A stretch of DNA of 45,089 bases. Source: Chitinophagaceae bacterium. Its GTDB lineage: Bacteria; Bacteroidota; Bacteroidia; Chitinophagales; Chitinophagaceae. The DNA lies in the NCBI GenBank assembly GCA_027486835.1, contig JAIXOJ010000006.1:1-45089 (forward strand), given 5' to 3'. The position numbers and the translations under genes are program-made. The notes beneath the pieces were generated by a model. It saw only the letters and a program-made list of their open reading frames with translations. It did no database searches and was not told the DNA's origin. Shown piece by piece: positions 9,180-44,805 of this stretch. The stretch's first letter is position 1; each line of letters begins with the position of its first letter.

Positions 9180-9247
9180 TAAAATTACTATGATGACAAA
9201 AATCAAATAACTGCATTATGTCTCATTTATGGTGCAGATTTGTTTCA
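9180..9247 (-). promoter_or_regulatory. Promoter with shared 25-bp site (copy 1 of 4)
   Basis: On the plus strand 9223-9247 ends in GGTGCAGATTTGTTTCA and matches three other sites in this window (22 of 25 bases with the copy at 44781). Read on the minus strand, a -7-like box TAATTTTA (9180-9187) lies 35 bp downstream, and the start codon at 9096 is about 75 bp beyond the expected transcript start. The sequence lacks a consistent -33 TTTG, which would fit activator-dependent initiation (inference). Confidence 0.62.
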
Positions 9248-9378
9248 CATTTGCACTAAACATCCTGCTTTAGACGATGCAACCAACTATTGAGAGCTTC
9301 TTAAAAATTTTAACCCAATTATCAATTTAATTTAAAAAAAGGAAAGACTACCTTGGTTATTTAAGTTGAGTAGTTCTA

Positions 9379-9448
9379 AAAGGGTGCGTAAAAGTTTTTC
9401 GCGTCTCAGAAAAGTTGCTTCAAAGCGAAAAAGTTTTATGCACCCTTT
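9379..9448. repeat. Long imperfect inverted repeat (24-bp arms)
   Basis: The arms at 9379-9402 (starting AAAGGGTGCGTAAAAG) and 9425-9448 (ending TTTTATGCACCCTTT) are complementary at 22 of 24 positions around a 22-bp spacer. The element sits alone in the 581-bp gap between two convergently ordered, same-strand transcription units, downstream of the terminator at 9487-9528. It could be a structured RNA, a small palindromic mobile remnant, or a protein-binding site. No coding capacity is seen. Confidence 0.6.
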
Positions 9449-9486
9449 AAAAGCCAATACTTTATTGTGATAAGTAAAGGGAATAA

Positions 9487-9528
9487 AAAAAGGCTATCAG
9501 AAGGGTAATACTTCCTAATAGCCTTTTT
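9487..9528 (-). terminator. Rho-independent-type terminator after the 9678-11657 gene
   Basis: A stem of 11 bp (AAAAAGGCTAT at 9487-9497 pairing with ATAGCCTTTTT at 9518-9528) encloses a loop with a further short GAAG/CTTC pairing. A- and T-rich runs flank both sides, so it could act in both directions. It lies about 150 bp downstream of the stop of the lysine-tailed hydrolase and separates that gene from the next promoter. Confidence 0.8.
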
Positions 9529-9677: not shown

Positions 9678-11657
9678 TTAGTTTTCAGTATCACCAGTTT
9701 TATCTTTTTTGCCTTTTCCAGCTTTCTTCTCTTTCTTCTCTTTTTTATCTTTCTTCTCTTTTTTGCCTTTATCACCAGTATTGCCTTCATCGGCACTTTC
9801 GCCTTTGCCATACTTAGTTCCTTTTGCATATCCCGAAAATGCCTTCACTTCTGTAGGAGGACGTAAGGCGGGTAGTTCCTGTTCTCCACGGTGTACTTCT
9901 ATTAAACTAAAAACATCATCTTTATCATCTGCGTTTACGATGGCTAAATCAGACCCCTTTTTTCCTCCATATCTAAATACGGCATCTCTTATCGTTACTA
10001 CCTCATGATGCCATTTTTTGTCTCCTTTGCCAGTTACAGTGATGGCTGTTTTCATGGCTTTAGCACCTGCATCATAATCTAGTTTCCATTTTGAGCCTTC
10101 AATACTGTCGTACCATACAATAGTTATAGACATTACTTTAGGCTTTGCATCTTGAGAAAACCCTTCATGTAGTTTAAAATACAAGGCATCTTTTCCAGTA
10201 CTATGCTCAAACCCACGGGCAAACCTAGCATAAATTGGTGAGGTGTTTTTTATAGGACCACCAATTCGCCATAATGGAATTGATGTGGCATCTGGCTCAA
10301 TTTGATATAGTAATCGAGAATAGTTTTCAGGCCAAATTTCCCAACCTACATCATTAAATCCAGCTTGATCTCCTCTTTGCTTTACTTGTCCTAATGCAAG
10401 TGCCTTCTTATCCTCGTTTGCCGCACCATATTTTGCATACTCAGCACATATTTTTTCCATTCGTTCCAAATTGCTGTGTGAAGCCGCTCCATATTTTGCC
10501 TCTGGATAAACTTTGGTATCTGCCGCATCTAAACCTTTATGTAATGCACAAAAAGCATCAGTAGCCGTTTTTGGATAAATCTGCCCCGCATATTTATTAA
10601 AGAAATAGAAGGAGTAATCAAACCCCAGTTCTTTACTTACAAGCATGGCACTTTTACTTACATCCCACACACTTTGCCCTGAGTTTAACGCATTAATTGC
10701 CCCCCAATAAAAATTTAAAGGAACATTTAATTGATACCATGGCCTACCCCAAGTTTGATCCATCTCAGAACGACGAAATAACGTATACCCTTTAGGATCT
10801 ATTAGATAAGGAAGGAAATCGCTTATAGCAGAACGTTCCCCACTTAAATGATGCCCACGAGAAAGTGCCCCATTCTTAATGCCAAAACCTTCTTTCAGCG
10901 TAGAAGTTGCCCAATTCCATAATTCATTTTGATTATTCTTAGTGTCTTCTTCTGGCGAAACACCATTGAAAAGTAACCTTAATTTCAATCCCGAATCGGA
11001 ACTAAACAGTTTTGCATATTCTGCAAAGGTTTCTTTTCTAAATTGCCCCCAAGCTGCATCGTTAGTTTTCAATTTATACTTAGGGTCAATTGCATCTCCT
11101 TTATAGGGACATTCATCTCCTGTACAACCTGTTTTTACTTGTATAAATGCAATACGGTTTTGCTTTTCTTTTGAATAGCCACTGATATGTTTGGCAATTG
11201 CGTTAAGGAACCTAAAATAGTAGGTCTTGTAATCGGGAGATAAATAGTATGGATAAAAGGGGAATTTATCAGCATGTCGTTTGTCGTCTGTCACCACTTT
11301 GGGTATTCCTTTTGAATATACCCAATCAGGCGTCTTTGGTCCAGCTTCAAATGAATAGTAAACGGATATATTTTCTTTTGTTGCCCTCTCAATTGCTTGA
11401 TCCATTGTACTCCAATCATAAACCCCATCCGATTTTTCCACTTCATCCCATGGAGCATCACAGGATGTTCCTCTCACATAAGGATACACTTTGGGATCCA
11501 TCGCTTCCCCGCGATCCCAAACTCCAAACGAACTCGTTGATAAGGAAGACTGGCCTAATGATAAATTGCAAACACCTATTAAAATAATTAGAAGGCATTT
11601 TTTTGTAACCCTAGATAAATCAATTCTTCTTTGTTTCATGACAATTTTATTTTTCAT
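9678..11657 (-). CDS. Secreted TIM-barrel-like hydrolase with a lysine-rich C-terminal tail
   Basis: This 659-aa protein is a clear paralogue of the 7372-9096 product: GDAIDPKYKL matches GDPVDSKYAI, ARGFEHSTGKDALYF matches ARGFEHATGKDSLFF, and DWVYSKGIPKV matches DWLYENGVPKV. It carries a signal peptide (hydrophobic stretch CLLIILIGVCNLSLGQ); ATGs at 11657 and 11639 are both possible. Where the paralogue has Glu178 (VVEGSTGD) this protein has Thr176 (VKTGCTGD), so one candidate acid residue is missing, while the second Glu (RRSEMDQTW) is kept. The last 30 or so residues are almost only Lys, Glu, Asp and Gly (for example GDKGKKEKKDKKEKKEKK). It has its own promoter with the shared site and its own terminator. 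Family not assigned. Confidence 0.7.
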   Translation of the reverse strand: MKNKIVMKQRRIDLSRVTKKCLLIILIGVCNLSLGQSSLSTSSFGVWDRGEAMDPKVYPYVRGTSCDAPWDEVEKSDGVYDWSTMDQAIERATKENISVYYSFEAGPKTPDWVYSKGIPKVVTDDKRHADKFPFYPYYLSPDYKTYYFRFLNAIAKHISGYSKEKQNRIAFIQVKTGCTGDECPYKGDAIDPKYKLKTNDAAWGQFRKETFAEYAKLFSSDSGLKLRLLFNGVSPEEDTKNNQNELWNWATSTLKEGFGIKNGALSRGHHLSGERSAISDFLPYLIDPKGYTLFRRSEMDQTWGRPWYQLNVPLNFYWGAINALNSGQSVWDVSKSAMLVSKELGFDYSFYFFNKYAGQIYPKTATDAFCALHKGLDAADTKVYPEAKYGAASHSNLERMEKICAEYAKYGAANEDKKALALGQVKQRGDQAGFNDVGWEIWPENYSRLLYQIEPDATSIPLWRIGGPIKNTSPIYARFARGFEHSTGKDALYFKLHEGFSQDAKPKVMSITIVWYDSIEGSKWKLDYDAGAKAMKTAITVTGKGDKKWHHEVVTIRDAVFRYGGKKGSDLAIVNADDKDDVFSLIEVHRGEQELPALRPPTEVKAFSGYAKGTKYGKGESADEGNTGDKGKKEKKDKKEKKEKKAGKGKKDKTGDTEN

Positions 11658-11689: not shown

Positions 11690-11755
11690 CAAAATTAATT
11701 TATAGAACTATGGTGAACCATTGTAAAAGCCCCATTAATGTGTCAATTTGTTTCA
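11690..11755 (-). promoter_or_regulatory. Promoter with shared 25-bp site (copy 2 of 4)
   Basis: The plus-strand site at 11731-11755 (ending GTGTCAATTTGTTTCA) matches the copy at 40695-40719 at 20 of 25 positions. On the minus strand the box TAATTTTG (11690-11697), a good match to the Bacteroidota -7 consensus TAnnTTTG, follows 33 bp downstream. The start codon at 11657 is about 25 bp beyond the expected transcript start. It lies in the 128-bp gap after the sulfatase gene ending at 11786. Confidence 0.68.
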
Positions 11756-28733: not shown

Positions 28734-29777
28734 CTATGGTTTGTTTTTATAATGAATCTCAGAAAGCTCTTTTAATGAAAGTGCGGCCATTTCTGGTGTA
28801 ATATCTCTTTGGGGATTGGCTAACATTTCGTATCCAACCATAAACTTTTTTACACTAGCTGACCTTAATAAAGGTGGATAAAAGTGCATGTGCCAATGCC
28901 ATTCATTGTGCAACCCATCATTTACAGGCCGTTGGTGGATGCCCGCAGAATAAGGAAATGAAATTTTAAATAGGTTATCGTATTTAGTGGTAAGCTTTTT
29001 TAAAATAGCCGCTAATGATTTTTTCTCTGCCTCTGTAAACTCACCAATATCAGTTACATGCCGCTTACTTATTATCATTGTTTCGTAAGGCCAAACTGCC
29101 CAAAATGGTACAACCACTAAAAAATGTTCATTTTCTACTACAATACGCTCTTTCTGTTCTAACTCAATATCTATATAATCAGACAGCAAGCTTTTCCCAT
29201 GAATTTCAAAATACTGTTTTTGCTGTAGCGTTTCTTTTTCCAATTCAAGAGGTATAGATGAGGAAGCCCATATTTGCCCATGAGGATGTGGGTTACTACA
29301 TCCCATCGTATCTCCCTTATTCTCAAAAATCTGGATGTACTTAATAAAAGGGTTATTGGATAATTCAGTAAACTCTTGCTGCCAGAGATTCACTACTTTT
29401 TCTATATCCTCTTCAGCCATTAATGGGAGCGTTAAGCTATGATTAGGCGAGAAACAGATTACTTTACAAATACCACTTTCACTTTTAGCCACTAATAAAT
29501 CATTCTTATTAATTACCCCATCAGGTGTATCCTCTAACAATGCAGAAAAATCATTTGTAAACACAAAGGTATCTTTATAGTCAGGGTTTTTACTACCATC
29601 GGAACGCTTGTTTCCTGAACATAAATAGCATTCCGCATCATAAGCTGGTCTTGTATCATTTGGAACTGTTTCTACTTTTCCTTGCCATGGTCTTTTTGAA
29701 CGATTCGGGGAAACTAAAACCCATTCGCCTGTTAGTATATTTTTTCTTGTGTGAGGGTGTTCCTTTATTTCAAACAT
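28734..29777 (-). CDS. galT: Galactose-1-phosphate uridylyltransferase
   Basis: This is the Leloir-pathway enzyme that exchanges UMP between UDP-glucose and galactose-1-phosphate. I set the start at the ATG at 29777, 1 bp after the galK stop; the longer frame begins with TTG. In the longer numbering, the zinc-binding CYLC is at 53-56, and the active-site NPHPHGQIW contains His167 and the nucleophile His169. Length (347 aa) matches the family. It is cytoplasmic, with no signal peptide. The tight junction with galK indicates a common transcript. No galE is seen in the window. Confidence 0.95.
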   Translation of the reverse strand: MFEIKEHPHTRKNILTGEWVLVSPNRSKRPWQGKVETVPNDTRPAYDAECYLCSGNKRSDGSKNPDYKDTFVFTNDFSALLEDTPDGVINKNDLLVAKSESGICKVICFSPNHSLTLPLMAEEDIEKVVNLWQQEFTELSNNPFIKYIQIFENKGDTMGCSNPHPHGQIWASSSIPLELEKETLQQKQYFEIHGKSLLSDYIDIELEQKERIVVENEHFLVVVPFWAVWPYETMIISKRHVTDIGEFTEAEKKSLAAILKKLTTKYDNLFKISFPYSAGIHQRPVNDGLHNEWHWHMHFYPPLLRSASVKKFMVGYEMLANPQRDITPEMAALSLKELSEIHYKNKP

Positions 29778-29778
29778 A

Positions 29779-30933: not shown

Positions 30934-31009
30934 TTGGGTTAAATATTTACAGCTATTTTATTTTCTTTAGGAGGACAAAAATTTATTAATTTCTGCTTAA
31001 TGGCATTTA

Positions 31010-32155
31010 CTACTCAACAACTGAAAAGCGGTAAATTGTCTTTGTGTGGTATTTATCAGTTGGATTAAGAATGTTAGATGGAAAAACTTTTTTATCAACC
31101 GAATAAGGGTAACGCTGAGTTTCTAATGCAAAGGATTCTCTGTAATTAATAGGTTTTCCTAATTTACCTATATCTGTTCCTTTAAAAAAGTTGGCACTAA
31201 ATAAATGAATGCACGGTTCAAGTGTAAAGACTTCCATTTTTCGACCACTATTTGGTTCAACTACTATAGCAGCCAAAGACATTTCTTGCTTCTTTTTTTT
31301 GTTTAGAATATAATGATGATCATAACCACCTGCTAACTTTAGTTGTTGGTTTGAATCCTGAAGTACTAAATCTTTACCCATAGGTTTTTCATTTCTGAAA
31401 TCAAATGGCGTTCCTATTATTGTATAATTTTTAGCTATTGCCATTTTATCCTCATTGATAGGACAGATATAATCTGCATGTATGGTTAACAAATGATTAT
31501 AAATGGTGCCACTTGCCTCACCGGCAAGATTGAAGAACGCATGATTTGTTAAGTTTAGAGGTGTACTTTTATCAGTAGTAGCCTTATATTCAATTTGTAA
31601 TTCATTTTTTGGATTTAATTGGTATGAAACTTCTATTTGTACGTTTCCGGGATACCCCATTTCGCCATCTTTTGACAAATAAGTCAATACCAATGAAGTT
31701 TCAGTACTAGATTTTACCTCCCAAACCTGATTGTGAAACCCATTTAATCCTCCGTGTAAATGGTGATTACCAGCATTCTGTTGCAATGAATAATTTGTTC
31801 CATTTACATCAATTTTCCCATTGCTTATACGACCTGCAACTCTTCCAATAATTGCCCCATGATACACCCCTGTAGCTTTTAAATAGTCATCAATACTTTT
31901 AAATCCAACGACAACATCAGCCATTTTACCATCCTTATCAGGTGCACACAAACTAACAATCCTACCGCCATAATTGGTAATTGCCATGCTGATTCTTCCA
32001 TTCTTTAAAAAGTATAAACCAACCATTTTACCATTTATGTTTTTTTGAAAATCTTCAGCTTTTAATGGTACACAATTTTCGGTTTTAACATCTTGACAAT
32101 AAACATTGTAATTGCTACAAGTAATAAAAAAGAATAATGATAATAATAATTTCAT
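31010..32155 (-). CDS. galM: Aldose 1-epimerase (galactose mutarotase), exported
   Basis: This protein of about 381 aa interconverts alpha- and beta-D-galactose. Motifs include GNHHLHGG, NHAFFNLAG (catalytic His) and the C-terminal SFALETQRYPYS (catalytic Glu). The N-terminus is a signal peptide (MKLLLSLFFFITCS), so it acts outside the cytoplasm, where exo-galactosidases release sugar. ATGs at 32173 and 32155 are both possible; a longer frame would need TTG. It heads galM-galK-galT. The 204-bp gap to the sulfatase upstream holds no clear terminator, so read-through is likely. Confidence 0.9.
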   Translation of the reverse strand: MKLLLSLFFFITCSNYNVYCQDVKTENCVPLKAEDFQKNINGKMVGLYFLKNGRISMAITNYGGRIVSLCAPDKDGKMADVVVGFKSIDDYLKATGVYHGAIIGRVAGRISNGKIDVNGTNYSLQQNAGNHHLHGGLNGFHNQVWEVKSSTETSLVLTYLSKDGEMGYPGNVQIEVSYQLNPKNELQIEYKATTDKSTPLNLTNHAFFNLAGEASGTIYNHLLTIHADYICPINEDKMAIAKNYTIIGTPFDFRNEKPMGKDLVLQDSNQQLKLAGGYDHHYILNKKKKQEMSLAAIVVEPNSGRKMEVFTLEPCIHLFSANFFKGTDIGKLGKPINYRESFALETQRYPYSVDKKVFPSNILNPTDKYHTKTIYRFSVVE

Positions 32156-32359
32156 TGCGTTATCTAGTTTCATGCTCAATCTTTATTACATTGTTAGTAT
32201 TATATAAACACACAATTTGTATTGTTAATAACAAATACTACTTACGGCTTCGCCACTCTCAATCACATTATAATTGCAGTTTCGTAATGAACTTGGACAT
32301 TTCTGATTATAAACTTTATTTAGTTCTTCGTTTGAAAGGCTTAGTAGTTTAAACCCAGA

Positions 32360-33901
32360 CTATTTCAATTCAATTTTTTCAACATTTTTATAATCTTTAC
32401 CTCGAATCAATTCAAAGCCTTTAATCATTTCGGTTAAAATTTTGGGTTGTGTTTTCGCCAAATTGTTTTTTTGTCCTATATCATTTTTCAAATTATACAA
32501 TTGATAATCTTTTGAATTACCCAATTCAATATTTACTTCTTCAAGTATTGCTTCACCGGGATAGGGTGGAATCATTAACCAATCACCTTTTCTAAAGGCA
32601 GTTTTAGTATTCGCCTCTGTAACTAGGCTTTTACGTCCTATGTTAGACTTACCCATTAGCGCATATAATAAATTTTGGCTATCCGTATTGGTTGTTTTAC
32701 CACCTACTAGGCTAGAAATAGATGCAATCAAGTCTATTTGACAAACCAAAGCATCAGAAACAGCAGGGCTTATTTTTCCTTTCCAATAAGTAAAAAATGG
32801 AACTCTTGTTCCGGCTTCAAGCAAACTGTATTTGCCTCCGCGAAGTGGCCCAGTTGGTTTGTGCTTGCCTATTTTTTCAACCGCTTCATCATTATATCCA
32901 TCATTTAATACTGGCCCATTATCACTTGAGAAAACCATCAATGTATTGTCTAAAAGCCCTTCGGATTTCAATGTATTTATAATCTCACCAACACACCAAT
33001 CTGCCTCTAATATGGCATCACCACGTACGCCCATACCCGATTTACCAACAAACCGTGGGTTTGGGGTGCGAGGCACATGGGGTTGGTTCAAAGCATAATA
33101 AAGAAAAAAGGGTTTGTCGTGGTTATTCCTTATGTAGGTTTGCGCTTTTTCTAAAAAATGGTCTGCGATATCTTCGTCTTTCCAATTGGCACTTGCCCCT
33201 CCTTTTACAAAGCCTATGCGAGGAATGCCGTTTACGATAGAACCGTTATGTCCATGATGCCACATCATTTTTAATAGTTCTGGATTCGCTTTCCCTGTAG
33301 GCTGTCCCTCAAAATTTTTATCGTAATTAACGGAAATGGGGTCATTAGTATTTAATCCATCAACAAAACCATTATCAATAAAAACAGTCGGCACTCTGTC
33401 TTGTGTTGCAGCCAACACGTATGCATAATCAAATCCAACATCATTTGGTCCTGGTGATACCTTTTTATTCCAATCAACAATTCCGGTACCTAACCCAAGG
33501 TGCCATTTACCAACAACTGCGGTATTATATCCACATTTTTTCAGCATTTTAGGAAGCGTTTGTTGCTCTGTTCCAATTAATAAGGGTGCTGACCCTGGCA
33601 ATATTTTAGCATCTTTATTACGCCATGGATAAATACCTGTAATTAGAGCATAACGACTCGGCGTACAAGTAGCAGAAGTTGCATAACCATTCGTAAACCG
33701 TACCCCTTTGTTTGCTAACTTATCAATATTTGGTGTTTTAATGGTTGTAGCACCATAGCAACTTAAATCACCATAACCTAAATCATCTAAATATATTACC
33801 AGAATATTAGGCTTCAACTTTGGTTTAGGTTGTTGCGTTTGATTTGCATAACCATAAGATGTTAGAAGGATAACAAACATTAAGGCATTTAATTTTCTCA
33901 T
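32360..33901 (-). CDS. Exported type I sulfatase (Cys-type)
   Basis: This 513-aa protein has a signal peptide (about 1-20), metal-binding VIYLDDLGYGDLSCYGA, catalytic CTPSR with Cys79, and FSSDNGP. The substrate-facing part includes WHLGLGTG and LRGGKYSLLEAGTRVPF. Its start overlaps the stop of the previous sulfatase by four bases (ATGA at 33898-33901), a sign of coupled translation. It lacks the lysine-rich tail. It is the last sulfatase before galM. Confidence 0.92.
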   Translation of the reverse strand: MRKLNALMFVILLTSYGYANQTQQPKPKLKPNILVIYLDDLGYGDLSCYGATTIKTPNIDKLANKGVRFTNGYATSATCTPSRYALITGIYPWRNKDAKILPGSAPLLIGTEQQTLPKMLKKCGYNTAVVGKWHLGLGTGIVDWNKKVSPGPNDVGFDYAYVLAATQDRVPTVFIDNGFVDGLNTNDPISVNYDKNFEGQPTGKANPELLKMMWHHGHNGSIVNGIPRIGFVKGGASANWKDEDIADHFLEKAQTYIRNNHDKPFFLYYALNQPHVPRTPNPRFVGKSGMGVRGDAILEADWCVGEIINTLKSEGLLDNTLMVFSSDNGPVLNDGYNDEAVEKIGKHKPTGPLRGGKYSLLEAGTRVPFFTYWKGKISPAVSDALVCQIDLIASISSLVGGKTTNTDSQNLLYALMGKSNIGRKSLVTEANTKTAFRKGDWLMIPPYPGEAILEEVNIELGNSKDYQLYNLKNDIGQKNNLAKTQPKILTEMIKGFELIRGKDYKNVEKIELK

Positions 33902-35325
33902 TCTACACTTTTTTGTTTAGATTTTTTTTGTTTCTTAATTAGCGGGAATAAGTCTGAATCAATGTGTGCTGATTTGGCTATTTCAAAAAACTCACTTTTC
34001 AGTTGTGGTTCTGTGGCTGCTAAGTCATTTTTCTCATATGGATCTTTCGCTAAATTAAAAATCTCGATAGAAGGTTTCTTAGTCTCTTTATCAAAAGTTA
34101 TTACTGCCTTCATGTCACCTTTCCTTATACCTTGTGTTTGATTACGCTCCCAATAAAGGTATTCGTGCTGCTTTTGATTATTTGATTTACCCAACAATGT
34201 TGGAAGCATAGATATTCCATCTATGTTTTCTGGAGCTTTTACTTTTACTAACTCCGCAGCAGTTGGTAAAAAATCCCAAGATGCCGAAATAAGGTCTGAC
34301 TGACTGCCAGCAACAATTTTACCTTTCCAATAGGCAATCATTGGGCTTTTTATACCACCTTCATACATTTCACTTTTACGCCCTCGCAAATCGCCGCCTG
34401 TTCTAATATATTCATCTTCTTTAGGTCTCAGGGCAGTTCCATTGTCACTAGTAAAAATTATTAAGGTATTATCTAAAAGATTTAATTCTTTTAGTTTAGC
34501 AATCAATTGACCTACCTCTTTGTCAAGGCGGGCAGTCATGGCCGCATATTTAGGAATTGAAAAATCCTCAGATGTAGGATCACCCTTTGGCTTACCAGTT
34601 TTTGTTACATAATAGTCCAATATTTTATCATCAGGCTGATCATAGGGGTTATGAGGCAAAGTAGATGCGAAATACAAGAAGAAAGGCTTGTTTTTATTTT
34701 GCTCAATAAAGTCTAACGCTTTTGAAGTAATGACATCAGCACTATACTCTTTATAGGGAGCTTTGAGGTTTCCTTCAAGTGGTATTGAATCATCATTCTG
34801 ACGAAGATAATTTGTGAAATAGTGGTGCGCATGGCGTTGACAGTTATATCCAAAAAACTGATCAAACCCTTTCTTATTTGGTGATCCTTCAGAACCAGGA
34901 TACCCCAATCCCCATTTTCCAAAGGCTCCTGTTGTGTATCCTGCACTTTTCAAAACCTCTGCAACTGTAATTTCACTAGCCAAAATTGGCTCATTCCCTT
35001 CAGTTGGCATTTCCTTATTGTCTCTAATCCATGTATGCCCTGTATGCTTCCCAGTCATTAACGCACACCTTGAAGGGGCGCAAATGTTGGAACCGCAATA
35101 GTGGTTAGAAAAAACCATACCTCCTTTAGCCAATTTGTCAAGATTAGGCGTTTCTATAACCTTCCCTCCATAACAACCTAGCTCAAAATAGCCCATATCA
35201 TCTGCCAGAATGTAAATAATATTGGGTTTACCTTTTTTATTTGATGCTTTTTGACCCTTTGCACTTATTCCGTTTAGTATTGATACCAATAATAAAACCG
35301 GAAGTAATAATCTACTTAATTTCAT
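33898..35325 (-). CDS. Exported type I sulfatase (Cys-type), basic C-terminus
   Basis: This 475-aa protein has a signal peptide (about 1-22), metal-binding ILADDMGYFELGCYGG, catalytic CAPSR with Cys82, and FTSDNGTALRPKE. HAHHYFTNYLRQNDD and TLPHNPYDQPD look like parts of the substrate pocket. The C-terminus is a short basic stretch (LIKKQKKSKQKSVE), weaker than the tails of other proteins here. It is 18 bp after the 35343-36935 gene and overlaps the next sulfatase by four bases. Confidence 0.92.
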   Translation of the reverse strand: MKLSRLLLPVLLLVSILNGISAKGQKASNKKGKPNIIYILADDMGYFELGCYGGKVIETPNLDKLAKGGMVFSNHYCGSNICAPSRCALMTGKHTGHTWIRDNKEMPTEGNEPILASEITVAEVLKSAGYTTGAFGKWGLGYPGSEGSPNKKGFDQFFGYNCQRHAHHYFTNYLRQNDDSIPLEGNLKAPYKEYSADVITSKALDFIEQNKNKPFFLYFASTLPHNPYDQPDDKILDYYVTKTGKPKGDPTSEDFSIPKYAAMTARLDKEVGQLIAKLKELNLLDNTLIIFTSDNGTALRPKEDEYIRTGGDLRGRKSEMYEGGIKSPMIAYWKGKIVAGSQSDLISASWDFLPTAAELVKVKAPENIDGISMLPTLLGKSNNQKQHEYLYWERNQTQGIRKGDMKAVITFDKETKKPSIEIFNLAKDPYEKNDLAATEPQLKSEFFEIAKSAHIDSDLFPLIKKQKKSKQKSVE

Positions 35326-35342
35326 CTTTAATTGTTTATTTT

Positions 35343-36935
35343 TTAGTTCTCATTTTCTTTATCAACCCAGTTTTTCGGCATTGGAACTGTAGGTTTTCCA
35401 AACTTTTCTAAATATTTATCAAACATGTTGTAATATTTTTCCTTATACATTTTCTTTAACTTCTCTTCTCTTGCTTCGGGATAATAATCAAAAACATCTC
35501 CATTCCCTAATACTCTTGGATCTCTTTGCAATACGAGCACTTGATGCATTTGATTCTTTAGGTTTAGTATCGTACTCGCATATTTGGTGTCTGCTGCTAA
35601 ATTGTGTACACAATCAGGATCTGTCTCTATATCAAAAAGCTCATCAGAAGGTCTTTTACCAAAAGACAGCATATAATATTTGTACTCTGGATCTCCTTCC
35701 TTCAAATTGGTTATATAGGTTTTTGTAGGTGAGTCATCACAATTGTTATAGCCATATTCTGGGTCACCTGCGGGCCATCTATTTGTTTTATAGTTGTGGG
35801 AATATAAATACTTATCTGTTTTAATTGCTCTTACAGGATAGCCAACAGCTATTTGATCCCCCTCTATTCGGCCCATATCATGCCTTTCTCTTCCCACAAT
35901 TGAAAACGAACGACTTTTATCAATTCTACCCGACTTGTTAGACAATAATAAATTAAGAAAACTCTTGCCTGTCATTTGCTCATGTGGTTTCAGCCCTGCT
36001 ATTTCCATAATTGTTGGAGCAACATCTGGGAAATTGATAAAATCTGTTACTACTCTCCCTGGCTTTATTTTATCTCCCCATCTAACAACAAATGCCTCAT
36101 GAAAATCTTCGTCATATATCTGACCCTTAATATGAGGAAAGGGCATTCCTTGATCCGAAGTAGAAATAATAATCGTATTGTCTAGCAACCCTCTTTTATA
36201 CAAAGATTCCAATGCCTTACCAATCATCATATCATGGTATTCAACTTCTACACTATAATCAGCCAAATCGCCTTTAACTATTTCATTATCAGGAAAACAT
36301 TTCTGTACAACAATCTTGTTTAAATCTTTACCTGCCTTTTTGTAGGAATCCTTTTCATATCTACGATGTGCTTCATGCGTTCCAAACCAAAAACAAAATG
36401 GCTTAGTCGAGTCTCTTTTGGTTAAATAGTCTTCAAAATTTGCAGCATAATCTTTTTTGCTTATTCCCTTGTATGGAGGTGTACAAGAAATAGTATTGTA
36501 TTCCCATCCAGCAGGGTTATGTTCTCCATAATAAACACCAGGGCCCCAACCTTTGCCCGTGTACCCAATTGAATATCCTGAATGCTCTAACAACTCGGGA
36601 TAAAACTTCCATTTTTCGGGCATTACTGGTATATGATTAGCTCCCTCTTCAAGTTGCCAAGAGTAACGACCTGTGAGAAAGCAAGCCCTTGATGGAGAAC
36701 ACTTTGGGTTACATACATAGGCATTCGTAAATAATACACCTTCCTTTGCAATCCTATCAAAATTGGGGGTTTTGATATAAGTGTTTCCATATACTCCCAT
36801 ACTCGTTCTTGAAATATCGTCCCCCATTATAACCAAAATATTTGGACGTTTATTTTGAGCCAATATTGTCCCATAAATAACTAAAGAAATTAAAAAGAGT
36901 ATAGACTTAGATGTAGAAACTGCGCTTTTCTTCAT
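35343..36935 (-). CDS. Exported type I sulfatase (Cys-type), SGSH-like style
   Basis: I chose the ATG at 36935 because the longer frame overlaps the upstream gene and has a poor leader, whereas this start opens a signal peptide (SILFLISLVIYGTILAQ). The 530-aa product has metal-binding VIMGDDISRTSMGVYGN, catalytic CSPSR with Cys79, and STSDQGMPFPHIKGQIYDED. In place of the usual DNG it has DQG. The sequence style resembles the sulfamidase-like branch of sulfatases, which does not fix the substrate. It is 17 bp before the 33898 gene and 25 bp after the 36961 gene. Confidence 0.9.
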   Translation of the reverse strand: MKKSAVSTSKSILFLISLVIYGTILAQNKRPNILVIMGDDISRTSMGVYGNTYIKTPNFDRIAKEGVLFTNAYVCNPKCSPSRACFLTGRYSWQLEEGANHIPVMPEKWKFYPELLEHSGYSIGYTGKGWGPGVYYGEHNPAGWEYNTISCTPPYKGISKKDYAANFEDYLTKRDSTKPFCFWFGTHEAHRRYEKDSYKKAGKDLNKIVVQKCFPDNEIVKGDLADYSVEVEYHDMMIGKALESLYKRGLLDNTIIISTSDQGMPFPHIKGQIYDEDFHEAFVVRWGDKIKPGRVVTDFINFPDVAPTIMEIAGLKPHEQMTGKSFLNLLLSNKSGRIDKSRSFSIVGRERHDMGRIEGDQIAVGYPVRAIKTDKYLYSHNYKTNRWPAGDPEYGYNNCDDSPTKTYITNLKEGDPEYKYYMLSFGKRPSDELFDIETDPDCVHNLAADTKYASTILNLKNQMHQVLVLQRDPRVLGNGDVFDYYPEAREEKLKKMYKEKYYNMFDKYLEKFGKPTVPMPKNWVDKENEN

Positions 36936-36960
36936 TTTATTCAATTTTAATTGTAGCATA

Positions 36961-38427
36961 TTAAAGAATGTGTGAGGGTAATGGAAGAAAATCATGATCT
37001 ATTATCATCTTCTTTTCTAACGCTTCTCTATGTGTTTTTTCAATGTCTTTAAATTCTTTTTTACCTGTAAGATTGTTTAGTTCAAAAGGGTCATTGGTAA
37101 GGTCATACAATTCAAAAACAGGTCGCTCTTTGTAGAAATAAAACTTTTGCAATAAATCAGACAACCTATTGTCAGTATGGGCTTTCACTACTTCTTGCCA
37201 CGCTTCTGTTTTTACCATGTCCACCTGTGCAAATTCTTGCTTGGGCAAGGCATTGTAAATAAAATTAAATTGCTCTGATGTTACAGATCTTGATAGATCT
37301 AAGCCATCTGTTCTTGTAAGTGGTCCTGCATGCCAACCACGCTCAGCAAAAACATAGTCTCGTTTATTGGTTTCATTAACACCTTTTAATGTGCTTAAAA
37401 AACTCTTTCCAGAAATTTTATTTTCAAAACTTAAACCAACCATTTCTAGTATTGTAGGAGCAAGGTCTTCGCCGCTAACCAATGTTTTAGTAGATAAATT
37501 CCCTTTTTTCAGTGTTGCTGGGTAACGGATAATTAAAGGTACATGTGTGCCACGCCCACAAAGCGTTCCTTTTCCTCGTAATAAAGACTCACCATTATCC
37601 CCAATGAAAATAACTATGGTATTTTTCGACAATCCCCTTTCTTCTAAAACTTTCATTATTGACCCAAACCCTCTGTCCATTTCTCGTACATCAGATAGAT
37701 AACGAGCATAATCTTTACGTACTTCTGGTAAATCAGGAAAATCAGGTGGCAACACCAAATCACTAGGATTTATTTCTTCAAAATCTTCTCCAAATTTCCT
37801 GTGTGGTTGATTAAATCCAAAATACAGGAAGAATGGTTTCCCCTTGGGTACTTCATCAATTATAGCATTAATCTTTGCTGGAACTTCTGTCAAATGCGCT
37901 CCTTTTGTATTAAATTTTACTACATGATCAAAGCGTGTTTTAAGACTCCTCATCCCTTCATTTGCCAAAACTTCATTAATCATTGGATTTTTATCTTCTT
38001 CAGCCCCATCCAAATGATGGTTACGACCATCTAACCCTACCCAATAACCCGATTTCCTCAATACATCAGTAAAAAAAGGAACTTCTTTACGTGATGGCTC
38101 TGCAAAACGAGTAACATCAATACTCACTGGACTACACCCTGTAAAAATGGAAATTCTTGAAGGAGCACATTGAGGTGCTGTAGTGTAAGCCCTTTCAAAT
38201 CGCATTCCTTGTTTGGCAAATGCATCTAAATTCGGGGTTATATTATATTTCAAAACGTTTGCATCACCATAACATCCTACATGAGGAAAGCTATGGTCGT
38301 CAGACAATATTAAAAGAATATTAGGCTTATTGATAGAAGTATCTTTTGATATGGTTCTTGCAAACAACGATAGAACCATTAATAGAAAGAAAGACAACAA
38401 TCCTACTTTTTTACATTTAAAATTCAT
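36961..38427 (-). CDS. Exported type I sulfatase (Cys-type), SGSH-like style
   Basis: This 488-aa protein has a signal peptide (about 1-24), metal-binding LILSDDHSFPHVGCYGD, catalytic CAPSR with Cys87, and FIGDNGESLLRGKGT. GCSPVSIDVTRF and the SDDHSFPHVG start are like sulfamidase/heparan-type sulfatases, but specificity cannot be read from sequence. It is the second gene of the long unit, 66 bp after the alpha-galactosidase-like gene. No lysine-rich tail. Confidence 0.92.
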   Translation of the reverse strand: MNFKCKKVGLLSFFLLMVLSLFARTISKDTSINKPNILLILSDDHSFPHVGCYGDANVLKYNITPNLDAFAKQGMRFERAYTTAPQCAPSRISIFTGCSPVSIDVTRFAEPSRKEVPFFTDVLRKSGYWVGLDGRNHHLDGAEEDKNPMINEVLANEGMRSLKTRFDHVVKFNTKGAHLTEVPAKINAIIDEVPKGKPFFLYFGFNQPHRKFGEDFEEINPSDLVLPPDFPDLPEVRKDYARYLSDVREMDRGFGSIMKVLEERGLSKNTIVIFIGDNGESLLRGKGTLCGRGTHVPLIIRYPATLKKGNLSTKTLVSGEDLAPTILEMVGLSFENKISGKSFLSTLKGVNETNKRDYVFAERGWHAGPLTRTDGLDLSRSVTSEQFNFIYNALPKQEFAQVDMVKTEAWQEVVKAHTDNRLSDLLQKFYFYKERPVFELYDLTNDPFELNNLTGKKEFKDIEKTHREALEKKMIIDHDFLPLPSHIL

Positions 38428-38493
38428 TCTATACTATCGTTAGGCTTATTTTATTAAAAAACATGGCAAACAGAATCACTTAGATATTAGGTT

Positions 38494-40632
38494 CTACAAC
38501 TTTTGAAATTCTATAATTTTTACAGAATGATGTGGTTGAGTCAATGTTAACTTATCCGCAGCTATATTGAAGTGATCTTTAGTCCATATTTCAGTGAGCT
38601 TATATTTTGAATTGTTCAACTCAAAATCTGTTTTAAGATTGTATGTTTTAGTAACATCAGTATCAAGCCAATTAAAAATGGTAATGATAAGACGATCTTT
38701 TGTTTCCAATTTCCATATAGTTGGGATATCAACCCCTGTAAACAAATCTAGCGGTATAGCATGTACCCCTAATTTATTAACCGATATAATATCTTTGTTT
38801 TTCAAAAGTTCTAATCTTTCCGCAGGTAAGGATTCTACTTTATCGCCAAAAAAGAAAAGCCCTCCCATAATTGCTTCCAATGTCATGTGACATTTAGCTT
38901 CGTCTATTGTGTACAATGGGTTAACAAAAAATGCGTCAGGGTCACAAATGGCAATATTTTTATGGATATAGTAGTTTTGTGAAACTGATCGTGCAAAGCG
39001 TACTAGTCCTTTTTCTACTTGATCATCTTCAATTGTTCCTAATGTTTTCCCGTAAGTAATATTGGTATAAGGTTCCGCTTCTGACTTATATCCTGGATGA
39101 TTGATGTCATTGCCAATTCTTACGGCATCATAACATTCTAATGCACCAAATACATACCCCATGCTTCGTGTAACTATTAGATTTTCTGGTAAAGCAATTC
39201 TGATTGCACGAATTGTTTTGTTGTGTGCTTGCATAAATGTAATAGTAGAATCATAGCGTTTACCTTCTTCCAAACCTCCGTAAGTATGATCCCACTTCAT
39301 AAATGAGGGTTTATATCCTTCTACTATTTGTTGATATCGACCCGCCGAAAAACCAGGTACTGCGGGATGACTACCATCTACATATACAGTTCCTATGGTA
39401 GTTTCCATTTCGTCATCACCTTTTGCTACTTTTTTAGCAAGGGCTGGTTTCAAAACCCAATCAGGGTGTTGAGCAGTAATTGGATCAGTAGGATTTGTAC
39501 GAAAAGGACTAACATGAAGACCAAAATCAAGCCCTAAATCTGTAACATAATTTGATAAGTAGCGAATGCCATGAGGAAATAAAGAATCATTTACTTTATA
39601 TAACCCTGGAGTTGTCCACCACCCCCCATCAATTTGCATCTGTTTCCAACCGTACTCTTTTAAATTTTTGTTGATAAAATCAGCAGAAGTAAGAAATGTT
39701 TTTTCAGTAATGTTCCTACTGTATGTATGCCAAGAACTCCAACCTGGTGCAGGGCATTGCATAGGTTTTCCCTTGCGCACATTTTCACCCATAATTTTTC
39801 CTGTTTCCAACAATATTTTAGTAGGTCTTTCATTATCCCAGAAACCTACTAAAAACGCATCGGTTGTAATGGTGTTTCCAGCAGGTACCCATATTTTTTC
39901 CCTCTCGAAAATTGCACCACTGCGAGCAGATATTTTTAATCGATTGAAATCATCTTTAACTGGTAATTCCCATTTGAAACTATTTGGCCACAATTCAGAA
40001 GCAATACTTGCAAAAGAGAATGCACAATTTTTTTTGTCATTCACCAACATACTTAGCCAAACCCCTGTATGAGCTTTAGAATAAGTACCTGCCTTTGCGC
40101 GTTTTGTATCTAATTGGTATGGATACATTATAGCACCAGTATGAGGTGCTGAGGCACTTTCATTAAATATGAGCCAATCTTTGCTATTGCCCGGCAATAC
40201 AATATTTTCTTTTGCCGAATTAAACAACCTTATACCACCTAATTTGAATTTCTCATTTGCTTTTAGAGAAGCATTCATTACTAGATAAGGACGACCTTCC
40301 ATCAATTCAAATTCAATAGTGAAATTGGAAATTAAAGGATGGTTTTCACAAATGAGGTATAGATATTCTACCTTACCAGTATAATTATTCGATACACTTA
40401 AACGTGTACCCTCTTTTTTTACCCATTTGATACTTTTGAATTCGCTGGCAGATACCCACTTATCATTAATTTCTATTTCGGGTGAAATGTTATTAATCTG
40501 TGCAAACTGGTTATTCCATTGAATGCTGTAAGTTGGTTGGTTGTCTATGTATTTTATTATAGGATTATTATTAGCCTTGGCATAATAAGCTGTTAAGACA
40601 AATAGAAAAAAGAATACTTTATACCTTTTCAT
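38494..40632 (-). CDS. Alpha-galactosidase-like enzyme, clan GH-D, exported
   Basis: The start at 40632 gives a clean signal peptide (KRYKVFFFLFVLTAYYAKA); the ATG at 40647 falls at about the expected transcript start, so it is less likely. The 712-aa protein has an N-terminal beta-rich domain to about 290 and a barrel with CPAPGWSSWHTYS and MQIDGGWW. The probable nucleophile is Asp448 (FMKWDHTYGG) and acid/base Asp509 (AVRIGNDI). It differs strongly from the 5489-7330 enzyme, so it may take a different linkage or a sulfated substrate. It is the first gene of the sulfatase/galactose unit, preceded by the shared promoter. Confidence 0.82.
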   Translation of the reverse strand: MKRYKVFFFLFVLTAYYAKANNNPIIKYIDNQPTYSIQWNNQFAQINNISPEIEINDKWVSASEFKSIKWVKKEGTRLSVSNNYTGKVEYLYLICENHPLISNFTIEFELMEGRPYLVMNASLKANEKFKLGGIRLFNSAKENIVLPGNSKDWLIFNESASAPHTGAIMYPYQLDTKRAKAGTYSKAHTGVWLSMLVNDKKNCAFSFASIASELWPNSFKWELPVKDDFNRLKISARSGAIFEREKIWVPAGNTITTDAFLVGFWDNERPTKILLETGKIMGENVRKGKPMQCPAPGWSSWHTYSRNITEKTFLTSADFINKNLKEYGWKQMQIDGGWWTTPGLYKVNDSLFPHGIRYLSNYVTDLGLDFGLHVSPFRTNPTDPITAQHPDWVLKPALAKKVAKGDDEMETTIGTVYVDGSHPAVPGFSAGRYQQIVEGYKPSFMKWDHTYGGLEEGKRYDSTITFMQAHNKTIRAIRIALPENLIVTRSMGYVFGALECYDAVRIGNDINHPGYKSEAEPYTNITYGKTLGTIEDDQVEKGLVRFARSVSQNYYIHKNIAICDPDAFFVNPLYTIDEAKCHMTLEAIMGGLFFFGDKVESLPAERLELLKNKDIISVNKLGVHAIPLDLFTGVDIPTIWKLETKDRLIITIFNWLDTDVTKTYNLKTDFELNNSKYKLTEIWTKDHFNIAADKLTLTQPHHSVKIIEFQKL

Positions 40633-40652
40633 TGCAATCATTTTCATTGAAG

Positions 40653-40719
40653 CAAAAGTATCAAGAAGGCATATGGATTAGCGATGGTTATTGTCGCATT
40701 GATGTGCACATTTGTTTCA
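40653..40719 (-). promoter_or_regulatory. Promoter with shared 25-bp site (copy 3 of 4)
   Basis: The plus-strand site at 40695-40719 ends GTGCACATTTGTTTCA. On the minus strand TACTTTTG (40653-40660), a full TAnnTTTG match, lies 34 bp downstream. The expected transcript start, near 40645, is just upstream of the ATG at 40632, which gives a very short leader. It probably drives the whole 40632-to-28224 unit. Confidence 0.68.
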
Positions 40720-41257: not shown

Positions 41258-44200
41258 CTATTGCTTAATAAAGTGCTGTTGTTGTTTGCCCTCAACGTTC
41301 TCTATTTCTAGTATGTAGCTACCTACCGCTAACTTGGCTACTGAAATCATGAAAGAGTTTGTACCTGCATTTAACTGTTCTTTTTGTCTTGCAACTACTT
41401 TGCCTTGTGCATCTATCAATCGCAAATTCATTACACCCGCTTTTAATGCAGAAACTTGTGCATATACAATAGAATGTACTGGGTTTGGATAAATACTAAA
41501 GAATGTTTTTATTACTTTCTCACTCAATTCTACAGTTACTACTTTACTATACGTTTTGCTACCATTCTTATCTACTGCCTCTATTCGGTAGAAAATAGTT
41601 GCTGGCAAAGCACTTTCATTAAGCAAATTATCATCATAACTATAGCTTCCATCCCCCTTTACACCTACTGAACCTATCGTTCTATATAAAATTCCATCAT
41701 TACTACGCTGTACTTTGTAGTTAGCAAGGTTAACCTCGGTACTACTTATCCAATTTACTACTACTGTTCTGTTTACTTTTAATTGTGCTGAAATAGTTGC
41801 TATTTGTACTGGCAAGGGTGCAGTAATTTGATTTATTATTAGCCTTCCATTACCCCCGTTACCACCTTTTTTAGTAACATTAGGGTATAGGTATGGTGAA
41901 TTGCTGTTTCTTACAGCCGCTCCAGAACCCCCTCCACCTGGAATGAATCCAAAACTACCATCTGAAGTTAAATTTATGCCAGTAGCCCCGTTACCACCAC
42001 TTGTACCTGCTACACCTGCTGTTTGTACACCACCTTTGCCTCCATTGCCATTTGTACCAGCACTTCCACCACCGCCACCAGTACCACCACTAGTTGCACT
42101 GCCACCATTGCCACCATAATAAACAGAATCACCTTTATTACCAGATGTAGAAGCAATGCCGCCAGTACCGTTAAATACACCATTGGTTATAGATGAATTA
42201 AGGCCGCCAGCCCCACCAACCGCCAAAACAATTGTGTCACTGTTTAAAATGGCAAATGATCTTCCACCAGCCATTGCACTAGACCCATTTGCAAAACCAG
42301 ATGTAGCACCTACACCACCTGCACCTACAGTAAAATAGACTATTTGACCAGGCGTTAGACTCTTGAAAACTTTGGCATAACTACCCCCTGCACCGCCACC
42401 ACCTTTGGCTTGAGTAACAGCAGTTACATTACCACTAGCTGCAGAACCGCCAGCACCACCCCCACTCCATATTTGAAATGTAGCACCGATAACCCCCGCT
42501 GGAACTACCCAGAAATTAGACCCTGTAGTATCAACAACAATGGGGTCTGTTGTATTAAGTACAAAATTGGCAGTAATTGTCCTGTTTTTTCTTAATATAA
42601 AAGTGAGCGGATTGGTAGTTCCTGAGGTATCGCCACTCCATCCTGTGAACTTGTATCCTATTTTAGGTACTGCCGTTAAACTGATGGTAGTTAATTCTTT
42701 ATAAGTTGATTGAACGAGGTTTCTTGTAACACTACCTTTTGTAGAATCGGCATTAGTAGTTAATGTTAAATCTTGAGAATCGTCAAAGAAAATATCACTA
42801 ACATATTGATTGAGAATAAAGTCATTCTTACTCAACTTTCTCCCCCCCATAGTTACGTTATTAAAGTAGATTCCTCCATACCAAGGGGCAAAAACGTTTC
42901 CAGTGATTACTTGTTTTGTACCTGCAATTGGCGCTGCAATGGTTACATTTTGAAATGTAATACCTGAAAAACTAGAACCACGTTCATAGGAAACTACTTT
43001 CTTATTTCTAACGGTACTATCAATAGAATTTAAGCGAAAAGTAGGCATATTAGCCCGAGGGTCTGATACCCTAAAGTTTCTAACGGTAACATCTACAAAT
43101 CTTTGAAAAGAATCGCCTGAAGCACGTTGTACAAAAACTCCACCATCATTTCCACTAGAATTTCTATTATAGATTACATCACAATCTTCTACTACAATTG
43201 GAAATGAACTTCCTGAATCTGGAATGCCGGCCAAATGAAAGGCTGCAGCATTTGCATCTTTCCAAAATATACACCTTCTTCTATTGCCTTTAATATATGA
43301 ACCGTCATCAGCAGCTCGAATAAAGCAATCCTCTATTAAATGAGCATTTCCTATCCCATCACCATTTCCTCGCCAAGATATTATTTTCACCCATCTTGCA
43401 AAAGTTACCTCTATATTTCTATTGGGTCTTGTTCCCAAAGGATTCATATGAAGTGTATGAAAAGCAGGATCAATTATACACAAACCTGTTACTTCTACAT
43501 TCATTGCATTAGAAATAGAAATACTCTTGTACTCCTCTTCATTTGAACCTACAACCCAATTGGGATGTGTAATTTTTTGACTTGAAATAGTGCCATACCC
43601 ATATATTTTTATGTTATCGCCAGATAGTACTGGATTACCAGAGGCATCTAGATTGTTAAAAGTACCATATACTATTGCATCACCTGGTATATAGTATTTT
43701 TTATTAGAATAAACCTTAAAGTTTACTCCTATATCATGAACCCCTGGTAAAAAATACATGGTATCGTAATTCGCGGCAATATTGTTAGGCATAACACCCG
43801 GTGTCACATAAAGTACCCTCGTAGTGTTGGTTAGGGTAGGTTTTTTAATTAAAGGACTTGCAAAAAAAGAAAAAGTGTGTACAGAATCAGTTACAATATC
43901 GCTAGTTATCGCTTTGTTGAAACTATCCATTTGGCCATTAAAATCTATTACTATTTGCCCAGGCTTGTTGATGGTAAAATACACTTTACCAGCTACAACT
44001 GAAGCGGGGATGGAAACATTTTGTGCTGGTCGAGCTTGTGCTGAACTAATAGAGGCAGCTACGTTTCTAATAGTAAATCCAGAATTACAGGTAATTTCAA
44101 CCTCAACAGGTTGATTGTTACTCATTTCTATATTGCCATAAGTATGGCTCCACCCTGTTGTGTATATTTGATAACCCTGAACATTACCGGGTGTATTAAC

Positions 44201-44506
44201 ACCAAATTTGTCTACAATATCTGGCAATCGCGAAGCCTTGTTTTCGGTAAAGTGGGCAAAACAAGTAACCCATTGGTTGTTTGTAGCAGACGAACGAACT
44301 TTAATACTGTATTTATTGGAAGGTGCTAGCCCTGGTACATCCGCATAATTAACAAGTGTATCATTACCAACTATATATTGTGTACTTGATTGCGCATTAA
44401 GTTTTATGCCTGTAAAGAAAATATGGAGAAATAAAAACGCAAGCGCAAATACATTTCTTAAGTTAAGGATGCGTATATTTTTTGTGGGATAAATAGATAA
44501 TTTCAT
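41258..44506 (-). CDS. Modular T9SS-secreted beta-helix polysaccharidase, clan GH-N-like
   Basis: This 1,082-aa protein has a signal peptide (about 1-38), a right-handed beta-helix (about 230-575), an InlB-like repeat domain (about 578-650), a glycine-rich domain (about 665-905), a fibronectin-like domain (about 910-1010) and a T9SS type A sorting domain (FFSIYPNPVHS onward). In the helix, Asp383 (GNGDGIGN), Asp400 and Asp401 (AADDGSYIKG) match the three-aspartate arrangement of GH28/GH49. The stretch before it (YFLPGVHDIG; YYIPGDAIVYGTF) is typical of GH49-like enzymes. It probably makes the first, surface-located cuts in the polysaccharide. It is the only clear T9SS cargo in the window and is preceded by the fourth shared promoter. 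Confidence 0.8.
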   Translation of the reverse strand: MKLSIYPTKNIRILNLRNVFALAFLFLHIFFTGIKLNAQSSTQYIVGNDTLVNYADVPGLAPSNKYSIKVRSSATNNQWVTCFAHFTENKASRLPDIVDKFGVNTPGNVQGYQIYTTGWSHTYGNIEMSNNQPVEVEITCNSGFTIRNVAASISSAQARPAQNVSIPASVVAGKVYFTINKPGQIVIDFNGQMDSFNKAITSDIVTDSVHTFSFFASPLIKKPTLTNTTRVLYVTPGVMPNNIAANYDTMYFLPGVHDIGVNFKVYSNKKYYIPGDAIVYGTFNNLDASGNPVLSGDNIKIYGYGTISSQKITHPNWVVGSNEEEYKSISISNAMNVEVTGLCIIDPAFHTLHMNPLGTRPNRNIEVTFARWVKIISWRGNGDGIGNAHLIEDCFIRAADDGSYIKGNRRRCIFWKDANAAAFHLAGIPDSGSSFPIVVEDCDVIYNRNSSGNDGGVFVQRASGDSFQRFVDVTVRNFRVSDPRANMPTFRLNSIDSTVRNKKVVSYERGSSFSGITFQNVTIAAPIAGTKQVITGNVFAPWYGGIYFNNVTMGGRKLSKNDFILNQYVSDIFFDDSQDLTLTTNADSTKGSVTRNLVQSTYKELTTISLTAVPKIGYKFTGWSGDTSGTTNPLTFILRKNRTITANFVLNTTDPIVVDTTGSNFWVVPAGVIGATFQIWSGGGAGGSAASGNVTAVTQAKGGGGAGGSYAKVFKSLTPGQIVYFTVGAGGVGATSGFANGSSAMAGGRSFAILNSDTIVLAVGGAGGLNSSITNGVFNGTGGIASTSGNKGDSVYYGGNGGSATSGGTGGGGGSAGTNGNGGKGGVQTAGVAGTSGGNGATGINLTSDGSFGFIPGGGGSGAAVRNSNSPYLYPNVTKKGGNGGNGRLIINQITAPLPVQIATISAQLKVNRTVVVNWISSTEVNLANYKVQRSNDGILYRTIGSVGVKGDGSYSYDDNLLNESALPATIFYRIEAVDKNGSKTYSKVVTVELSEKVIKTFFSIYPNPVHSIVYAQVSALKAGVMNLRLIDAQGKVVARQKEQLNAGTNSFMISVAKLAVGSYILEIENVEGKQQQHFIKQ

Positions 44507-44737
44507 ACAGTATTTTGTAACTAATAGTGACTTTATAATTTGTAATGCCTAATAAAACAGGCTGAAAATTTCAAACAAAATAAACACTTGACCACTTTTA
44601 TTTTAGTAAGTTCCTTCAATTCAAAAGTATTAATCGTTTGTTTTCTTAGAAAGAATTTTTAAATAGGTTTTGATAGATTGATAAAAACAGTTAATCATAA
44701 TACAATTTAATTAAACAAGAAGATTTATACTTAATTG
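44507..44737. other. Long untranslated leader region of the T9SS enzyme gene
   Basis: If the promoter at 44738-44805 is real, the leader is about 224 nt, much longer than in the other three promoters (about 14 to 75 nt). The sequence is AT-rich. I see no convincing hairpin, riboswitch or small open frame. Confidence 0.4.
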
Positions 44738-44805
44738 TAAAATTATTACAACATTGCTACTTGTATTTAGTCAAGAAGGTTCATTTATGGTGCTATTTTG
44801 TTTCA
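44738..44805 (-). promoter_or_regulatory. Promoter with shared 25-bp site (copy 4 of 4)
   Basis: The plus-strand site at 44781-44805 ends GGTGCTATTTTGTTTCA and matches copy 1 at 22 of 25 positions. On the minus strand TAATTTTA (44738-44745) lies 35 bp downstream, the same spacing as in copy 1. It probably drives the 41258-44506 gene. Confidence 0.62.

Follow-up and report, generated by a model that had tools for sequence, protein, structure and literature searches.

A 45,089-nucleotide contig of a Chitinophagaceae bacterium (JAIXOJ010000006.1; hereafter contig C83 of genome G000) carries four minus-strand promoters that share one two-part direct repeat at a fixed distance from their −7 boxes. 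This contig is the whole of the window analysed here and belongs to a 6.4 Mb draft genome of 219 contigs (GCA_027486835.1). The four sites are, in our assessment, highly likely to be the operators of a single AraC-type hybrid two-component system (HTCS) encoded outside the window at G000:C32:78166-82293. A sequence-only reading of the window had described a 25-bp site upstream of each box and proposed that an activator binds it at a fixed spacing. That model is supported here and is refined to a direct repeat of two half-sites, the proximal of which sets the spacing; the regulator, which the same reading had placed beyond the window, can now be given a candidate in the HTCS on C32.

Architecture of the proposed operators and their promoters

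Operator 1 (9220-9247, minus strand) consists of a distal TGAAAC (9247-9242) and a proximal TGAGAC (9225-9220), 22 bp apart, followed 38 bp from the proximal half by the −7 box TAATTTTA (9180-9187) with a predicted +1 at 9175. Operator 2 (11729-11755, minus strand) combines TGAAAC (11755-11750) with TGGGGC (11734-11729) at 21 bp, the box TAATTTTG (11690-11697) lying at 37 bp and the predicted +1 at 11685. In operator 3 (40693-40719, minus strand) the halves are TGAAAC (40719-40714) and TGCGAC (40698-40693), 21 bp apart, with the box TACTTTTG (40653-40660) at 38 bp and a predicted +1 at 40648. Operator 4 (44778-44805, minus strand) pairs TGAAAC (44805-44800) with TGAACC (44783-44778) at 22 bp, and its box (44738-44745), again TAATTTTA, stands at 38 bp with a predicted +1 at 44733. 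The minus-strand cores of sites 1-4 read TGAAACAAATCTGCAC, TGAAACAAATTGACAC, TGAAACAAATGTGCAC and TGAAACAAAATAGCAC. All four sites and boxes lie where the sequence-only reading had put them, separated by the gaps it gave (35, 33, 34 and 35 bp); its common core close to GTGCANATTTGTTTCA describes sites 1 and 3, and sites 2 and 4 deviate from it.

To describe the motif more fully, we aligned 19 sites from three genomes, comprising seven from G000 (four in the window, three on C32) and those of the chief comparison genomes, G008 and G022. These were gathered by a permissive score in which the box counted, by a core-only search and, for C32:76458, by a spaced pattern with the box. Conservation extended past 25 bp, and the site proved to be part of a direct repeat of TGAAACAAA and, 21-22 bp downstream, TGAGAC or a variant, the second half-site reading (A/T)TGAGAC or a variant. 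The distal hexamer was TGAAAC in all 19 sites, and the proximal hexamer was TGAGAC (9), TGCGAC (3), TGAACC (3), TGGGGC (2) or TGAGCC (2). The two halves matched each other at 4.53 of 6 positions in register versus no more than 2.63 when shifted by 1 to 6. Their period was 21 bp in 15 sites and 22 bp in four, which agrees with the repeat of about 21 bp that characterises HTCS operators.

Counted from the proximal half, the −7 box lay at 38 bp in 16 of the 19 sites and at 37 bp in three. A perfect TANNTTTR box occurred at offset 37-38 in 15 sites and, over offsets 8 to 51, nowhere else; the remaining four had a one-mismatch box at 37-38. Since perfect boxes were confined to these offsets, the 21/22-bp variation sits in the spacer between the halves, and most of the 33-35 bp wobble in the earlier gaps arises there. 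The orthologous promoters at 9247 in G000 and 27759 in G008 illustrate this, with periods of 22 and 21 bp, respectively, and a box at 38 bp in both.

The boxes conform to the Bacteroidota primary-sigma −7 element (TAnnTTTG). No −33 TTTG element accompanied them, a TTG starting 19-24 bp upstream of the box in just four of the 19 sites, and the sequence-only reading had likewise seen no consistent −33. A TTG did begin 28-29 bp upstream in nine sites, which is too distant for a −33 element and is probably part of the operator. When the box is placed at −12 to −5, following PMC9723704, the proximal half begins near −50. Two conserved flanking positions counted from the proximal T, +13 (A in 17/19) and +18 (T in 18/19), then fall near −37 and −32, in the expected −33 region. 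As the conserved proximal flank reaches the place of the −33 element, the activator may substitute for the missing −33 contact. Promoters without a recognisable −33 have been reported for F. johnsoniae (PMC7366714).

The distal TGAAAC resembles some −35 elements recognised by extracytoplasmic function (ECF) sigma factors, and the sites could in principle be ECF promoters rather than activator sites. In such promoters the −35 is followed, about 16 bp on, by a −10 of the CGT type. Neither CGT nor GTC occurred 12-24 nt after TGAAAC in any of the 19 sites; instead, they carry a second half-site and, 37-38 bp away from that, a −7 box of the primary-sigma type. An ECF origin is therefore very improbable, even though some polysaccharide utilisation loci (PULs) are regulated by ECF sigma/anti-sigma pairs (PMC11501099).

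Repeated copying of one promoter, or chance, could also make promoters look alike. Among the seven own sites the best pair reached 0.79 identity between proximal half and box, and C32:83058 and C32:67329 (a pair named by eye) are so alike there that one copying event is likely. Elsewhere the flanks were unrelated. Compared with shuffled values of 0.28, 0.31 and 0.30, mean identity upstream, downstream and from proximal half to box came to 0.28, 0.28 and 0.35, whereas the half-sites reached 0.97 and 0.72 and the box 0.71. Composites arising by chance were rare in 60 Markov-resampled sequences. We consequently give copying or chance hardly any credence as an account of the shared promoter design.

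Specificity of the composite motif

Within the window, TGAAACAAANNNNNAC had four exact matches versus a mean of 0.11 and a maximum of 2 in 100 shuffles. The full composite (TGAAACA, a second half-site at 21-22 and a box or near-box at 37-38) occurred four times versus a mean of 0.017 and a maximum of 1 in the resampled sequences. The window core with two mismatches was not enriched (35 matches versus 36.8 expected). Genome-wide, TGAAACAAANNNGCAC had four exact matches, three of them in the window, and 20 matches at one mismatch versus 11 for a reversed control. The fourth exact match, on C200, was dropped as the stem of an intrinsic terminator, and the one-mismatch 16-mer matches on other contigs were taken as background on their composite-matrix scores. 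A loose TGAAACA-N50-56-TANNTTTR pattern was not enriched across the genome (19 versus 17 for the control), and specificity was therefore attributed to the second half-site.

All 19 sites went into a composite matrix of both halves and the box, and for this reason their own scores with it (at least 31.4 bits) are not independent. Control loci in G000 reached at most 14.3 bits and other PUL-contig positions at most 19.5. Two look-alikes, in G034 (33.0) and G019 (25.2), scored at or near the level of real sites; their genes were read and they were not counted. The former (L102:5830; G034:C1:291829) pairs TGAAAC with TGGGAC at 21 bp and stands 88 bp behind a separate gene for a receiver with an AraC-type helix-turn-helix domain.

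Two further models were used for searches. R1 was trained on the four window cores with the boxes excluded. Its best new match in G000 was C32:83058 (E 0.35), followed by the C200 terminator (1.28). In G008 and G022 it gave 16 matches at E up to 10, of which 11 lay within PUL stretches, and all 11 had a box at 37-38 (nine perfect, two near); the box-free test comprises only the 11 G008/G022 sites from the core-only search. Another R1 match, G008:C78:8962, was rejected with a composite score below 11. R2 was trained on 12 sites of G008 and G022, themselves picked by their likeness to the window motif. Its top six matches in G000 were the four window sites, C32:83057 and C32:67301, all of them regulon promoters, and the remainder began with C188:30001 at 17.1 bits.

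A genome-wide search had been proposed in the sequence-only reading, which expected further equally spaced sites, possibly before a SusC/SusD pair, and took many scattered hits without fixed spacing as grounds for refutation. Sites with the same spacing were indeed found before a SusC/SusD operon and before other genes for secreted proteins, and the scattered pattern was not seen. C32:83058 precedes a 479-aa glycosidase-like gene followed by susC and susD, C32:67329 precedes a 964-aa open reading frame (ORF) whose product has a CHU_C secretion domain, and C32:76458 precedes a 2783-aa ORF.

For six of the seven own sites, the orthologous gene in at least one of G008 and G022 is also preceded by a site. 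Those at 9247 (G008 C8:27759; G022 C3:39997), 40719 (G008 C11:34017; G022 C3:58203) and 83058 were conserved in both genomes. The sites at 11755 (G008 C8:33006; none found in G022), 67329 and 76458 were conserved in G008 only.

An HTCS that co-occurs with the operator

Very probably, the missing regulator is the AraC-type HTCS on C32, judging from its domains, its position beside a susC/susD operon with the same site and its distribution. The gene (78166-82293, minus strand) encodes 1375 aa with the Pfam domains Reg_prop, Y_Y_Y, HisKA, HATPase_c, Response_reg and HTH_18. It is followed on C32 by the operator at 83058, 765 bp away, susC (84645-87764) and susD (87783-89348). The domain set that defines an HTCS was found by Pfam in the C32 protein and in its orthologs from G022, a Lake Pavin Bacteroidia metagenome-assembled genome (MAG) and Flavobacterium luteum. 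The phospho-accepting His and Asp motifs, ISHEIRTPL and SDIVMP, are present in all five orthologs. Two stretches of the helix-turn-helix domain, MSRSTFFRK and YFSKWFK, are identical in the five HTCSs and different in two paralogs; by their position they may represent the recognition-helix regions.

The distribution of this protein matched that of the operator. Its identity was 78% in G008 and 72% in G022, and although 46 of 149 genomes (own included) matched the HTCS at E 1e-120, no listed match beyond these three genomes exceeded 38% identity, with four candidates scored per genome. Across 59 genomes (own included), all 16 R2 matches of at least 21.6 bits were in G000, G008 and G022. The three genomes with strong operators are thus the three with close HTCS orthologs.

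Three further genomes, none used in R2 training, were compared. The HTCS ortholog shares 60% identity in the Lake Pavin MAG and 53% in F. luteum, while identity in a Bacteroidales MAG is just 35%. In the Pavin MAG the best R2 match lies 3 kb from the HTCS gene (E 0.062). In F. luteum the best match is on the contig with the barrel hydrolase described below (E 1.6e-4), the second is 2.6 kb from the HTCS gene (E 0.0019), and seven of nine matches at E up to 0.5 fall on the two PUL contigs. In the 100 kb of these contigs that were scanned, the composite matrix returned 16 positions of at least 16 bits, four of them above 30. The strong positions keep the geometry, whereas the weak ones are doubtful and include at least one within an ORF (C2:36381). 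No R2 match below E 0.445 was found in the Bacteroidales MAG, and no composite match of at least 10 bits in 4.5 kb of a Verrucomicrobia locus (L111). The Pavin MAG also has two opposed, back-to-back candidate operators between divergent units (G149:C70:37341 and 37465), one of which scores 17.0.

Another regulator might bind the repeat, for example an AraC protein that stands alone or a response regulator from another locus, the HTCS being a mere neighbour. The G034 look-alike does stand behind a separate Response_reg and HTH_18 gene, and a one-component AraC regulator, CgrA, is reported to run the Zobellia carrageenan regulon (PMC5698469). In G022, however, the HTCS, susC/susD, hydrolase, sulfatase-like and galactose-pathway genes are gathered within a single stretch of 44 kb that also contains four operators, an arrangement that connects much of what C83 and C32 encode. 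From the HTCS to the site at 72733 this PUL holds 24 ORFs of at least 120 aa. Twenty-two of them, the HTCS included, match proteins of C83 or C32 (E 1e-20), and the other two show an SSF symporter domain and a weak type IX secretion system (T9SS) tail. No second DNA-binding regulator was recognised among these ORFs, which were Pfam-tested in part. Together with the co-occurrence of HTCS and site in five genomes, this makes a different regulator improbable, and the C32 HTCS is preferred.

Several observations weigh against assigning these sites to a single HTCS. Because the R2 training sites were chosen by likeness to the window motif, recovery of the window sites is not fully independent, and 12 of the 16 strong R2 matches are training sites. 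Operator 4 at 20.2 bits and C32:67301 at 19.5 scored no higher than the strongest off-target match, 20.3 in G019, and the best G034 score was 18.4 bits. R2 did not recover C32:76458 among its matches at E up to 10, and this site rests on the boxed spaced pattern and on the site before its G008 ortholog. Conservation is incomplete, as no site precedes the ortholog of the operator 4 gene in the G008 and G022 stretches examined, and G008:C11:30042, G022:C3:60283 and G008:C8:38000 have no own counterpart, the own ortholog of the gene at the last lacking a site. Three of the four one-mismatch boxes tie with another offset. Beyond the core genomes, the Pavin match is narrowly ahead of three on other contigs (E 0.07-0.15). 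F. luteum and the Pavin MAG yielded 13 core-only R2 matches at E up to 0.5, eight of them on PUL contigs; a perfect box at 37-38 accompanies five of the eight, in one case tied with another offset. A scan for the repeat geometry near five HTCS paralogs found nothing convincing, although its power was low, offset 38 being inconspicuous even in known PULs.

Content of the proposed regulon, possible mechanism and known systems

Operators 1 and 2 precede GH42-like barrel hydrolases of 574 aa (7372-9096, minus strand) and 659 aa (9678-11657, minus strand), the first genes of units 1 and 2. The sequence-only reading had described them as paralogous barrel hydrolases, and both give weak matches to Glyco_hydro_42. 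Unit 3 (28734-40647, minus strand) is a candidate transcript with a melibiase-like 717-aa enzyme, four sulfatase-like ORFs, an aldose epimerase, a galK-like ORF and galT, in which sulfatases were called by the CxPxR signature and galK by reading translations. Given the predicted +1 at 40648, translation of its first gene probably begins at an ATG that lies downstream of 40647. The 1082-aa secreted enzyme candidate behind operator 4 (41258-44506, minus strand) has no PDB relative at E 0.01 and carries a C-terminal Por_Secre_tail, as the earlier assignment to T9SS would predict.

In all, eight ORFs are sulfatase-like by the CxPxR reading (one Pfam-tested), and other substrate-related genes encode a GH2 beta-galactosidase, two melibiase-like enzymes, an aldose epimerase, GalT and a candidate sulfatase-activating enzyme of the formylglycine-generating enzyme (FGE) type (1098-2255, minus strand), whose G022 ortholog adjoins the HTCS gene. 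This gene content suggests that the substrate is likely a sulfated, galactose-rich glycan.

The GH42-like barrels form a family with several paralogs per genome (window 7372-9096 and 9678-11657; C32 89419-96923), and six loci with the 574-aa barrel emerged when a single genome of each species was scanned. The window copy tested had marginal PDB matches only, and the barrels could be a new glycoside hydrolase family. The secreted enzyme candidates at window 41258-44506 and C32 97026-104420 have in common a region of 570 aa in which Pfam shows no catalytic domain. Structure models of a barrel and a secreted enzyme had mean pLDDT (predicted local distance difference test) values of 36.2 and 37.0 and were not used. 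At the contig end (198-933), an ORF (198-584) whose winged-helix HTH_29 domain is of a kind seen in transposases overlaps the beginning of a gene resembling TonB-dependent receptors (520-933; CarboxypepD_reg); the F. luteum PUL holds an 823-aa relative.

A mechanism can be proposed on these grounds. The presumably periplasmic Reg_prop/Y_Y_Y sensor would bind an oligosaccharide of the target glycan, and the kinase would phosphorylate the receiver fused to it. The AraC-type DNA-binding domains of two such proteins could then bind in tandem on TGAAACAAA and TGAGAC or its variant, 21-22 bp apart, the proximal half beginning 37-38 bp upstream of the −7 box, at about −50. This would switch on susC/susD, the barrel hydrolases, the melibiase-like and sulfatase-like genes, the galactose-pathway genes and the secreted T9SS proteins.

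It is conceivable, though we consider it doubtful, that the geometry is a general HTCS rule, with the proximal monomer fixed near −50 in place of the −33 element and the distal one sliding by one base, and that the regulon serves a new environmental sulfated-galactan pathway with hydrolase families lacking a solved structure. Were the geometry general, the operators of uncharacterised HTCSs could be found from sequence alone. One HTCS has here been tied to its operator by comparing sequences in five genomes, a named Flavobacterium strain included, two contigs of one draft genome have been linked into a single regulon, and the locked proximal spacing offers a testable model of activation at promoters without a −33 element.

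A literature search, which left most subscription journals outside its coverage, found no published name for this operator. The Zobellia carrageenan regulon (PMC5698469) likewise spreads a sulfated-galactan pathway over several loci with a SusCD pair off the main cluster; its regulator is the one-component CgrA, whereas here it would be an HTCS. The Zobellia cluster also has enzymes for 3,6-anhydro-D-galactose, and none was recognised among the window ORFs, where no targeted search for them was made. BT4124 and BT4663 share the receiver and AraC-type domain with the present HTCS. Their phosphorylation-dependent binding to susCD promoters is reported in PMC11253607 for these Bacteroides proteins, and is here predicted.

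The closest parallel is with the HTCS regulons of B. thetaiotaomicron, which has 36 HTCSs, with motifs predicted for 16 (Ravcheev et al. 2013, PMC3878776). There, too, an AraC-type HTCS lies near susC/susD, and Bacteroides HTCS operators are direct repeats whose two conserved sites lie 21 bp apart on average, interpreted as monomers bound in tandem along one DNA face. The same source gives an example of a regulon that reaches a distant gene (HTCS_Hep, BT4675), much as the present regulon would extend across contigs. Since the repeat has this published form and the protein has the domains that define an HTCS, we class the system as a new HTCS regulon, one that differs from those of B. thetaiotaomicron in its lineages, its half-site sequence and its T9SS-secreted targets, and for which the spacing to the −7 box has been measured.

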